A DNA stretch of 47,139 nt from Planctomycetaceae bacterium (GTDB lineage Bacteria > Planctomycetota > Planctomycetia > Planctomycetales > Planctomycetaceae), in the NCBI GenBank assembly GCA_021732995.1, contig JAKFWA010000020.1, positions 1 through 47,139 of the forward strand. The letters run 5' to 3'. Under the pieces are notes generated by a model that was given only the letters and a program-made list of their open reading frames with translations, searched no databases and was not told the DNA's origin. This document shows positions 15,383-19,216 of this stretch, in pieces. The position numbers were made by a program, and so were the translations under genes. Position 1 is the first letter of the stretch, and every line of letters begins with the position of its first letter.

Positions 15383-17218
15383 ATGGAAACTGACCCGCTC
15401 CAACTTCGCGCCGCCTACGACCGGGCCAAGCAACTGCTGCTGGACCAGTGCGTCTCCGTCGATGGCCAACCGGCTCACTGGTATGGCGAGCTGTCAACGT
15501 CTGCACTGTCGACAGCGACTGCAGTGATGGCGCTGCTGCAGGTGAGCAAAGCCGGTCGAACGGCAGCCGACTACAAGCTGGATGCGAACCTCAACGAGCT
15601 GATGCAGCGCGGCATCCAATGGCTCGTTGAGCACCAGAACTCGGACGGTGGCTGGGGCGATACACTGAAGAGCATCAGCAACATTTCGACGACGATGCTG
15701 TGCCATGCCGTCCTGCATGCGACCGAACAGTCTGGTCTGGATTATCAGAACCCGAGCGGCAAACAAGCGGCGATTGAACGGGCTCGCGAATACATCGACC
15801 GTGCGGGTGGCGTTGCCGCCGTTCGCAAACGCTACGGCAAAGACAAGACCTTTTCGGTACCGATCCTCACGCACTGCGCGCTCGCGGGGCTTGTGAGCTG
15901 GAAGGAAGTCTCATCGCTGCCCTTTGAACTGGCGTGCCTGCCCGCCAAGTTCTACGCGGCGGTGAAGTTGCCTGTTGTCAGTTATGCGTTGCCCGCACTG
16001 ATTGCGATCGGGCAGGTGAAACATCACTTCGCACCGAGTTGGAGTCTTCCGCTGCGTTGGATTCGGCAGGCAGCCATCCGCAAAAGTCTTGAGGTACTCG
16101 AACTCATTCAGCCACCCCATGGGGGCTTTCTGGAAGCGGCTCCGCTGACCAGCTTCGTCACCATGAGCCTCGCGGCGAAGGGGCTGGTCGATCATCCGGT
16201 CGTGCATCGAGCCGTCCATTTCCTCTGCAACTCCGTGCGCCCGGACGGCAGTTGGCCGATCGACACCAACCTTGCGACCTGGGTCACGACGCTGTCGATT
16301 AACGCACTCGGCCCTGACCTGCCGGATGAACTGCGACCGGACTTGCTGCGCTGGTTGCTCGGACAGCAATACCGCGAAGTGCATCCCTACACCAACGCTC
16401 CGCCCGGAGGGTGGGCTTGGACTGACCTTCCTGGAGGTGTTCCCGATGCGGATGACACGCCTGGGGCGATGCTGGCAATTCGATCCTTGGGGTGGAGCGA
16501 GGCGAGAGAGCAAGTTCAGCCCCCAATCGAAAACGGTGTCCGCTGGCTGGTCAATTTGCAAAACCGCGACGGTGGCTTTCCGACCTTCTGCCGAGGGTGG
16601 GGTACGCTACCGTTTGATCGCAGTTCGCCCGACATCACTGCCCACTGCCTGCGCGCAATACATGCCGCTCACAGACCCGTTTCGTTATCCAAAAGTGATG
16701 TAGACGAGTACTGGACAGTGATCGCCGGAGGAGTTGGTTTTCTACGCAAGACACAGCGCACAAATGGGTCGTGGCTGCCACTTTGGTTCGGCAACCAACA
16801 CGCCCCGAATGACGAAAATCCCGTTTACGGAACGTCTAGGGTACTCATGGCTTATCGTGATTGCTTTGGACGGGACGAAGATGGTATGTGGGCAGAAGCC
16901 CAGCGAGGTGCGGCGTTTCTGGCGAGCATTCAGAATGCGGACGGCGGTTGGGGCGGAGCAGCAGGGATCGCCTCCTCGGTCGAAGAAACAGCCTTGGCGT
17001 CAGAAGTGCTGTTGTCGTTTAAACCTTATCGATTGCAGGCGTTTGGGGGGATTCGCTGGTTAATGGCGCGGGTTGCCGACGGATCTGTTTCTGACCCCTC
17101 ACCCATTGGTTTCTATTTCGCGAAGTTATGGTATTTTGAGCGGCTTTATCCGCTCATCTTCACGGTCTCGGCCTTGCGCCGTGCTGTGAATTTAAGTCTT
17201 TATGAGACAGACCTTTGA
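15383..17218 (+). CDS. Squalene-hopene-cyclase-like (class II terpene cyclase) protein
   Basis: A 611-residue double alpha-barrel protein of the triterpene cyclase family. Repeated QW-type motifs appear as QNSDGGWGDT (about 94-103), RPDGSWPID, NRDGGFPTF, QRTNGSWLP and QNADGGWGG. The protonating DxDD motif of class II cyclases is D355-A-D357-D358-T in VPDADDTPGA. The end, PIGFYFAKLWYFERLYPLIF, closely matches the usual squalene-hopene-cyclase ending. It should protonate and cyclise a linear polyprene at the membrane. The next gene encodes a polyprenyl synthase fusion only about 140 bp away and no squalene synthase is present, so the substrate may not be squalene (inference). Sterol-type oxidosqualene cyclisation is unlikely because the acid motif is DxDD rather than the sterol-type DCTAE. 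Confidence 0.85.
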   Translation: METDPLQLRAAYDRAKQLLLDQCVSVDGQPAHWYGELSTSALSTATAVMALLQVSKAGRTAADYKLDANLNELMQRGIQWLVEHQNSDGGWGDTLKSISNISTTMLCHAVLHATEQSGLDYQNPSGKQAAIERAREYIDRAGGVAAVRKRYGKDKTFSVPILTHCALAGLVSWKEVSSLPFELACLPAKFYAAVKLPVVSYALPALIAIGQVKHHFAPSWSLPLRWIRQAAIRKSLEVLELIQPPHGGFLEAAPLTSFVTMSLAAKGLVDHPVVHRAVHFLCNSVRPDGSWPIDTNLATWVTTLSINALGPDLPDELRPDLLRWLLGQQYREVHPYTNAPPGGWAWTDLPGGVPDADDTPGAMLAIRSLGWSEAREQVQPPIENGVRWLVNLQNRDGGFPTFCRGWGTLPFDRSSPDITAHCLRAIHAAHRPVSLSKSDVDEYWTVIAGGVGFLRKTQRTNGSWLPLWFGNQHAPNDENPVYGTSRVLMAYRDCFGRDEDGMWAEAQRGAAFLASIQNADGGWGGAAGIASSVEETALASEVLLSFKPYRLQAFGGIRWLMARVADGSVSDPSPIGFYFAKLWYFERLYPLIFTVSALRRAVNLSLYETDL

Positions 17219-17359
17219 TTCGTGTCGAATCGGACTCGATACTCGTCAAACTCTGTCGCTTGCAGTCTGGTTCGGCATGCTGGGGTCGGATGGCCACTGA
17301 GGGCTTTTAGACCTGCGTTCATCCCTCAATCATCGATCCTCAACAACTTGGAGTTCGCC

Positions 17360-19216
17360 GTGTCCATCGCATCAGTCGAAGTCCCTGAGATCGACGGACC
17401 CGCTGCGTCTGAAGTCGAACACGACGACGCCCCGGTCAAACGCCGACGTCGGCGAGAAAGCACGACGCACCTCAAGGCCGTTCCCGAAACTCTCGAGATG
17501 CGTGAGTTCGTCAAAGCCGAGTGCGAAAAGTTCGCAGAAGGTCTGGATCGGTCGCGACAGTTCAACAAAGCGGATCTGGAAGACTGGGCTCGCGAACTGC
17601 TGGCCAAGCTGAACCTGGCCGAGAAATACGTCGGCTTTGTGGCGGTGCTGATCGGCAACTTCTTTTGGAAACGTCAATTTCTGGCCATTCCGTTCGAACG
17701 TCGCCTGCTGCTGCTGCCGCACTGCCTGAAACACGCCGAGGGTTGTCCCGCCGACTACGACGAGTTCGGACTCGACTGCGAAACCTGCGGTGCCTGCTCG
17801 ATTGCCGACTACAAGGTGAAGGCGGAGAAGCTGGGCTACAAGGTGCTGGTGGCCGAAGGCTCGCCTATCGTCCTCAAGATCATCGTCAGCGGTTACGTGG
17901 ACGGGATTCTGGGCGTGGCGTGTCTCAATGTTCTGGAGAAGGCGATCGACAAAGTGCTGATCGCCGGTGTGCCGTCGTATGCAATCCCTCTGCACTCGGG
18001 CGATTGCAAGAACACGACGCTGGATCAGTCGTGGATTTGGGAAGTGATTGATAAGTACGAACCGCTGCCAGCTCCGCAAACGCCGAGCTTCCTGCCGCTC
18101 ATTCGAGCCGGCAACTTCATGTTTGAACGCGATTTTGATCGCCTGCTGCCGCGAGTCCGCACCAAGGATCCGGCCAAGCTGGAATCGCCGATCGCCTTCA
18201 CAGAGAAGATCGCCTACGACTGGCTGGCCAACGGCGGCAAGCGGTTCCGACCGTTCATCACTCTGGCAGCCTACGACGCCATGACCGGCGGCAAGCTGCA
18301 GATGTCGAATCTGGAAGGTCTGGATCGCCTGCCCGTGCCGGACTCCGTGTGCCGCGTCGCGATGTCCATCGAAGCCTTCCATAAGGCGTCGCTGGTGCAT
18401 GACGACATCGAGGATAACGACCTCTACCGGTATGGCCGCCCGACCGTGCATCGCGAGTACGACATGAGCACCGCGATCAACGTCGGCGATCACCTGATCG
18501 GTCTGGGTTACAAGCTGCTGAATTCCTGCCGCGCGGACTTCGGAGCGGAAGTCGCCTGCGATGTTTCGGATCGCATGGCTCAAGCACACATCAAACTGTG
18601 TGATGGCCAAGGCGCCGAGATGGCCTGGCAACGTCGCCCGACCATTGATCTCACACCAATCGATGCGCTGCAGATCTATGCGTTGAAGACGTCTCCGGCT
18701 TTCGAAGCCGCGCTGTATTCCGGTCTGCGAATGGCGGGGCCGCTGGGTGCCAACGAAGAAATGGTGCCTGCGTTCTGCCGTCATCTGGGCGTCGGCTTCC
18801 AGGTACTCAACGACCTGAAAGACTGGCTCGGCGACAAGAACAACAAGCTGGTGGCTGGCCAGGACGCTCAATCGCTGCGGCCCACAGTGCTGCTCGCAAT
18901 GGCCATCGAAGCGGCGACTCAAGCTCAGCGTGAAGAACTGCAGTCGATCATCGAAGGCGATCCGCAAGACCAGACTCGAGTCCACCGTCTGCGTCGAGTC
19001 TACGAAGACTGCGGAGTCTTCGAGAAAGCAGAAGCGTTGGTCGATAAGTGCCGCTCGAAAGCGGAAGGTCTGGCCGACGAAGTTGAGAACGAAAAGCTGC
19101 GGCAGTTGCTGTACTTCCTCGTCGATACCGTGCTGGCTCCCGAAGAGGACGCTGGTCCGAAGATCGAGCATCAATTGATGATGTCTCTGCCAATCGCCGA
19201 GATGAGTCGCAGCTAG
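17360..19216 (+). CDS. DUF116 domain fused to trans-isoprenyl diphosphate (polyprenyl) synthase
   Basis: About 618 residues. The N-terminal third has a basic patch (KRRRRRE), then a DUF116 domain (about 60-240) with clustered cysteines in [10 protein letters not shown] and [10 protein letters not shown] that could bind a metal or Fe-S cluster. The C-terminal part (about 295-600) is a polyprenyl synthase: [15 protein letters not shown], the first Asp-rich motif D348-D-I-E-D352 in [10 protein letters not shown], and the second motif as N484-D-L-K-D488 instead of DDxxD. Ser and Ala lie four and five residues before the first motif, where short-chain synthases have bulky aromatics, so a product of C20 or longer is inferred. 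Start GTG 17360 is preferred; TTG 17348 or an earlier GTG at 17222 are alternatives. Confidence 0.82.

Follow-up and report, generated by a model that had tools for sequence, protein, structure and literature searches.

A class II terpene cyclase and a DUF116-polyprenyl synthase belong to a co-inherited gene set that may make a cyclized polyprenoid lipid in Planctomycetota

Introduction

The cell plan of planctomycetes is unusual, and planctomycete lipids attract study as biomarkers. In a 47,139-nucleotide stretch of DNA from a Planctomycetaceae bacterium, analyzed here at its full length and referred to as the window, a gene for a class II terpene cyclase (CYC) is followed by one for a trans-polyprenyl diphosphate synthase fused to a DUF116 domain (PPS). 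The initial annotation of this locus proposed a dedicated route from isoprenyl diphosphates to a cyclic lipid. The locus raises the question of whether the two enzymes act in one pathway, which other proteins take part, and what the cyclase is likely to act upon. "Terpene-cyclase" and "polyprenyl synthase" genes have been described as common to three planctomycetes in an earlier report (PMC4982196).

Results

The annotation of CYC as a DxDD cyclase was borne out: D355-A-D-D358 is intact, with D355, D357, and D358 invariant in a 30-row alignment (A5), and both squalene-hopene cyclase Pfam domains are matched above cut-off (SQHop_cyclase_C, 109 bits; SQHop_cyclase_N, 65 bits). A structural model and fold comparison covering residues 5 to 607 revealed two alpha-toroid domains, which together with DxDD place CYC in the squalene-hopene cyclase superfamily. 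Scores against the NCBIfam squalene/oxidosqualene cyclase models listed were well below cut-off, the best being TIGR01787 (128 bits, cut-off 323), and CYC fell far short of the squalene-hopene cyclase model TIGR01507 (96 bits, cut-off 431). In a 69-row tree, the CYC family formed one clade (support 100/100), apart from a clade (98/95) holding all 19 hopene cyclases compared, 18 from other planctomycete genomes and one from Alicyclobacillus acidocaldarius. By tree and by TIGR01507 score, CYC therefore lies outside the canonical hopene cyclases tested, and we conclude that it represents a separate family. Most positions of its signature, PTFCRGWGTLPFDRSSPD, are invariant or near-invariant across the family.

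Table 1. Positions of the cyclase and synthase genes, domains, and motifs in the window
Feature	Position	Strand	Details
CYC, DxDD (class II) terpene cyclase; own family within the squalene-hopene cyclase superfamily	15383..17218	+	611 aa
D355-A-D-D358, predicted catalytic acid motif of CYC	16445..16456	+	30-row alignment A5
CYC family signature PTFCRGWGTLPFDRSSPD, residues 400-417	16580..16633	+	
PPS, DUF116 - trans-polyprenyl diphosphate synthase fusion	17222..19216	+	664 aa ORF; likely start GTG 17360
DUF116 domain of PPS, predicted Fe-S domain	17597..18049	+	128 bits (Pfam)
Polyprenyl synthetase domain of PPS	18206..18991	+	polyprenyl_synt, 151 bits (Pfam)
First Asp-rich motif HDDIED of PPS, residues 393-398	18398..18415	+	
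Second Asp-rich motif N530-D-L-K-D534 of PPS	18809..18823	+	

CYC could instead be a class II cyclase of the copalyl or drimenyl diphosphate synthase type, which would cyclize the polyprenyl diphosphate of its neighbor and keep the diphosphate, leaving accompanying genes to tailor the product. Drimenyl diphosphate synthase and hopene cyclase were separated by no more than 1.4 Z units in the CYC fold comparison, which cannot discriminate a hydrocarbon from a diphosphate substrate; the adjoining synthase would yield a diphosphate; and polar residues in the N-terminal half of CYC, such as Y151, D154, and T156, are invariant in the family. By sequence profile, however, hopene cyclase is the closest of the solved structures, at 127 bits versus 65 bits for drimenyl diphosphate synthase, and CYC is longer than the listed drimenyl (514 to 539 aa) and copalyl (523 aa) synthase chains. 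We therefore judge a drimenyl-type reaction unlikely.

PPS was confirmed as a fusion of DUF116 and polyprenyl_synt domains, with CYC directly upstream on the same strand. Its closest homologues align only from about residue 43 to 47 of the ORF, which makes the internal GTG the likelier start (Table 1). The motif set of trans-polyprenyl diphosphate synthases (PF00348) is present: GKR, two Asp-rich motifs, KT, and GQ. G339-K340-R343-P344, DDIED, G462-Q463, and K489-T490 are conserved in alignment A7, and the second Asp-rich motif reads NDLKD, with Asn replacing the first Asp where all seven DUF116 synthases from other groups in that alignment have DD. These intact motifs suggest that PPS is catalytically active. 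Small residues ahead of the first Asp-rich motif had been taken to indicate a product of C20 or longer; the residues are present, as K-A-S-L-V precedes HDDIED with Ala and Ser at -5 and -4 of the first Asp, but chain length is not readable from sequence. Seven cysteines of the DUF116 domain are shared by all 29 homologues compared, and a role in Fe-S binding is predicted. A Foldseek comparison of the model of this domain (pLDDT 85.7) with the PDB gave no hit at E ≤ 0.001, a result that does not make the fold new.

Conservation of the pair was surveyed in 294 evenly drawn Planctomycetota genomes of at least 90% completeness. The CYC family was present in 74 (E under 1e-90; next matches 1e-21 or weaker), and every one of these also encodes a DUF116 synthase (E under 1e-40). 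The synthase gene lies no more than 650 bp downstream of the cyclase on the same strand in 45 of the 74, upstream on the same strand with a gap of 0.9 to 2.7 kb in 18, and 0.7 to 7.3 kb away on the same strand in 5 further genomes; in 6, the two are far apart or on different contigs. The adjacency expected from the window is thus conserved in Planctomycetota, and it exceeds chance. DUF116 synthases without the cyclase occur in G005, G417, and G189, and also in G063, G065, and G066. Within the window's order, 153 of 170 genomes, or about nine in ten, have the cyclase (E ≤ 1e-28).

Neighboring genes were clustered from 60 fetched regions, some of which were controls (the window's own genome, and synthases without cyclase). 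Besides the cyclase and DUF116 synthase, they encode a GcvH-like protein, a CobW-type GTPase, a 2x[4Fe-4S] ferredoxin, a radical SAM protein, a small PF00432 alpha-toroid protein, and a cysteine desulfurase. The 294 genomes were then searched with profiles of the toroid, radical SAM, and ferredoxin families. The toroid protein (E ≤ 1e-15) occurs in exactly the 74 cyclase genomes, and the radical SAM protein (E under 1e-150) and the ferredoxin (E ≤ 1e-20) each occur in 72 of the 74 and in G323, which has both without a cyclase; weaker radical SAM matches in other genomes, down to 1e-44, were counted as other radical SAM proteins. Two cyclase genomes are without the radical SAM protein and two without the ferredoxin, some part-sets lying at cut contig ends; G383 has just a radical SAM fragment, located where a contig ends. 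The complete set of five was present in 71 of the 294 genomes, none of the five in 216, and part of the set in seven; the Fisher tests of co-occurrence ignore relatedness, and score thresholds were set after the results had been seen. The set is patchy within six families (f29, f31, f38, f44, f52, and f60), each of which includes genomes with and without it.

The three profiles were built from cyclase neighbors. In the window's family, however, just 3 of 31 genomes have the radical SAM gene no more than 15 kb from the cyclase, and just 3 of 31 the toroid gene, so the hits for these two are not an artifact of query choice; the ferredoxin gene is near the cyclase in 17 of 30. In the window's genome, the other members are scattered, with the radical SAM gene on contig C5, the toroid gene on C84, and the GcvH-like and ferredoxin genes side by side on C26. 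Together, these data demonstrate that the pair belongs to a co-inherited set of at least five genes. A two-gene pathway is ruled out by the co-inherited radical SAM, ferredoxin, and toroid proteins.

A scan of named genomes gave at least 592 candidate stretches, at least 580 of them encoding a relative, and the best 80 came from records titled as Planctomycetota, Lentisphaerae, Kiritimatiellae, Verrucomicrobia, Bacteroidota, and Hydrogenedentota. Among the matches listed, 60 loci include 5 kb or more of upstream sequence; 39 of these have the order ferredoxin-radical SAM-synthase-toroid-cyclase on one strand, and the other 21 have either the cyclase alone (four) or a partial set or different order (17). 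ORF calls were mechanical, and long antisense ORFs masked real genes in some GC-rich loci, so operon counts drawn from such calls may be low. In distant planctomycetes, Lentisphaerae, and Bacteroidota, the five genes are arranged as a single operon, which among Lentisphaerae is present in the cultured isolate Oligosphaera ethanolica. In a planctomycete locus (L145) and the two Bacteroidota loci scanned downstream (L172 and L176), the operon is followed by genes for beta-propeller, ferredoxin-type, and NADH-diaphorase-like proteins, and one of the ferredoxin-type proteins is NapH-like with Fer4_5. By eye, one ferredoxin-type protein past the operon carries a Tat-like signal. Downstream genes of similar size were seen at further loci.

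The initial annotation had noted that no squalene synthase accompanies the pair. This is true of the window, as no match to PF00494 (squalene/phytoene synthase) was found on its contig, but false for the organism. The assembly from which the window's contig comes (9.39 Mb; completeness, 99.98%; contamination, 4.23%) has two PF00494 proteins on other contigs: HpnC, at 343 bits (cut-off 250), and an HpnD-like protein, at 208 bits (cut-off 279, with HpnD still the best family). Another contig location holds a canonical squalene-hopene cyclase (710 bits against TIGR01507). Absence of a squalene synthase from the organism is ruled out by HpnC and the HpnD-like protein, and with these genes and the canonical cyclase present, squalene is a possible substrate in this genome.

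Squalene synthases were also surveyed in relatives, by searching PF00494 in 77 carriers: 62 of the 74 planctomycete carriers, plus 15 genomes reached through other-group loci in Lentisphaerae, Bacteroidota, and Verrucomicrobia records. Some PF00494 protein was found in 53 carriers, including the window's genome. The remaining 24 gave no match; they comprise 11 of the 62 planctomycetes, the single-contig G013 included, and 13 of the 15 other-group genomes, several of which are recorded as isolates. Not every genome searched is complete. With no PF00494 match in 24 of the 77 carriers searched, squalene is probably not a general substrate or requirement of the CYC family. It is accordingly improbable that CYC is a divergent hopanoid-type cyclase turning HpnC/HpnD squalene into a second triterpene, as the HpnC and HpnD-like proteins of the window's genome and the 53 carriers with PF00494 might suggest, when 24 carriers have no such protein, the window's genome already has a canonical hopene cyclase, CYC travels with a polyprenyl synthase, and squalene feeds C30 carotenoids in Planctopirus limnophila, a planctomycete for which deletion methods exist (PMC11958385).

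Whether the synthase is dedicated to the cyclase was addressed by a PF00348 search of 80 genomes, 64 of them carriers. The sole other PF00348 protein found in the window's genome is FPP-synthase-like, leaving the DUF116 synthase as the only long-chain polyprenyl synthase found there, so it may serve other long-chain needs. Three or four PF00348 matches were present in 41 of the 64 carriers and two in 23; apart from the fusion, G030, G157, and G013 each have an ordinary long-chain copy and a copy of the FPP-synthase type. Only two matches were found in 22 carriers of the window's family, its own genome included, a group picked partly because few PF00348 matches had already been seen, and the second copy is FPP-synthase-like in all four inspected (G000, G048, G081, and G082). 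Four genomes with a DUF116 synthase and no cyclase (G005, G065, G066, and G417) also have two matches each, the second being FPP-like in the two that were read (G065 and G417). Twelve genomes counted as having neither protein have one to three matches; one of these, G069, gave a weak, partial cyclase match. Overall, the product of the DUF116 synthase is probably a long chain available to other needs too. The idea of a dedicated route is doubtful, this being the only long-chain synthase found in the window's genome.

The obvious other need for a long prenyl chain is menaquinone, and the omega-cyclic menaquinones of Nocardia are a precedent for a ring in a quinone tail. The DUF116 synthase could then be the menaquinone side-chain synthase, with CYC closing the terminal ring of the tail. 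The 22 two-match carriers and the FPP-like second copies in the four inspected are consistent with this, as are the NADH-diaphorase-like, NapH-like, and ferredoxin genes past the operon in L145, L172, and L176. However, three or four PF00348 matches are the rule among the carriers searched (41 of 64), the DUF116 enzyme is an extra one in the three genomes that also have an ordinary long-chain synthase, and no quinone-ring gene was seen among the operon genes identified. We give the menaquinone explanation little likelihood.

Discussion

We consider it reasonably probable that CYC and PPS are the ring-making and chain-making steps of an undescribed pathway to a cyclized polyprenoid lipid, involving at least five co-inherited proteins. 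Using IPP, the DUF116 synthase would lengthen a short prenyl diphosphate into a linear, all-trans polyprenyl diphosphate of at least C20; C30 to C35 is a guess, made because the enzyme seems to replace the ordinary long-chain synthase in some genomes. As fold and motif suggest, the DxDD acid of CYC would protonate the terminal double bond, and rings would close along the chain. The remaining roles are read from protein families: the radical SAM protein, supplied by the 2x[4Fe-4S] ferredoxin, may modify or couple the chain through a radical reaction, perhaps helped by the cysteine-rich DUF116 domain and the lipoyl-type GcvH-like protein, and the small alpha-toroid protein may be a second cyclase or shape the same substrate.

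More tentatively, and as a possibility that we hold with considerable doubt, the set could make an unrecognized class of isoprenoid membrane lipids widespread in Planctomycetota, Verrucomicrobia/Lentisphaerae, and Bacteroidota. Its polyprenyl chain would be cyclized by two toroid proteins and joined or functionalized by the radical SAM protein, and the product might be a membrane component or an electron carrier for the NADH-diaphorase, NapH-like, ferredoxin, and beta-propeller module past the operon in the anaerobes examined.

A squalene-independent pathway of this kind, whose genes recur as an operon in Lentisphaerae and Bacteroidota, would, if real, add a lipid class and give DUF116 a role. 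Class II terpene cyclization is known; the five-gene pathway is new as far as we have found. The papers searched yielded no account of either the operon or any DUF116-polyprenyl synthase, though one DUF116 query drew mainly longer names such as DUF1162.

Among known systems, the squalene-hopene cyclase of A. acidocaldarius (2SQC/1SQC) shares 23% identity with CYC on structural alignment; the CYC family differs in its own signature, PTFCRGWGxLPFDRSSPD, its separate clade, and its sub-threshold TIGR01507 score. HpnH, at the adenosylhopane step, is a precedent for a radical SAM protein in a pathway with an SHC-type cyclase. The radical SAM protein of the set differs from it, as that of the window's genome scored 44.6 bits against the HpnH model (cut-off 225), which rules it out as HpnH. 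Drimenyl diphosphate and bacterial copalyl diphosphate synthases are 18 to 21% identical to CYC, have shorter chains, and use C15 or C20 diphosphates, and we know of no comparable operon for them. Nor, to our knowledge, does the Bacillus sesquarterpene pathway have a radical SAM, ferredoxin, or DUF116 partner. That pathway, which employs YtpB together with SqhC (PMC7839719), passes a linear polyprenyl diphosphate toward a cyclase of the SHC superfamily, as is proposed here.

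Gene order within the family and around the cyclase-synthase pair

The full operon (ferredoxin, radical SAM protein, DUF116-polyprenyl synthase, small toroid and cyclase) was found at two loci from the window's own family, L122 (genome G086) and L123 (genome G064). As these genomes carry the arrangement of distant planctomycetes rather than their own family's dispersed form, transfer is suggested. DUF116-polyprenyl synthases of approximately 51% identity were also present at loci L117 (G005), L118 (G065), L120 (G063) and L124 (G064), separate from any cyclase, and Asn is likewise the first residue of their second Asp-rich motif in all four copies read. 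A search for a cyclase orthologue in G005, G063, G065 and G066 found none.

In the window, the NRAMP-like ORF more probably begins at an internal Met, at 15238, which would leave a divergent promoter region before the cyclase. A gene resembling the CaMKII-association-domain/SnoaL-like one, as judged by eye, also lies 3' of the pair in G001, from the same genus.

Accessory and variant genes of the operon

The downstream redox modules comprise PQQ_2 beta-propellers, a small ferredoxin, a NapH-like Fer4_5 protein, a NuoE/F-like diaphorase and a Fer2 protein. In four Phycisphaerae/Sedimentisphaerales loci, a different radical SAM protein, with TIGR04013/B12-type likeness in the two scanned (L196 and L221), is encoded close to the normal radical SAM gene position; the radical step may therefore have been swapped there.

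Features flanking or accompanying the pair and the operon (L, fetched homologue loci)
Feature	Location	Strand	Remark
NRAMP-like ORF	window:13766-15478	-	overlaps cyclase start on paper
CaMKII-association-domain/SnoaL-like protein	window:19280-19744		immediately 3' of pair
MFS transporter-like ORF (by eye)	L194:7636-9078		between DUF116 synthase and small toroid
MFS transporter-like ORF (by eye)	L204:7657-9063		between DUF116 synthase and small toroid
Redox module	L145:11674-21399		downstream of operon
Redox module	L172:11824-20972		downstream of operon
Redox module	L176:17893-21247		downstream of operon
Different radical SAM protein	L187:5131-6711		CGRGCxFC
Different radical SAM protein	L196:1392-2912		CGRGCxFC
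Different radical SAM protein	L221:4458-6032		CGRGCxFC
Different radical SAM protein	L223:1062-2627		CGRGCxFC
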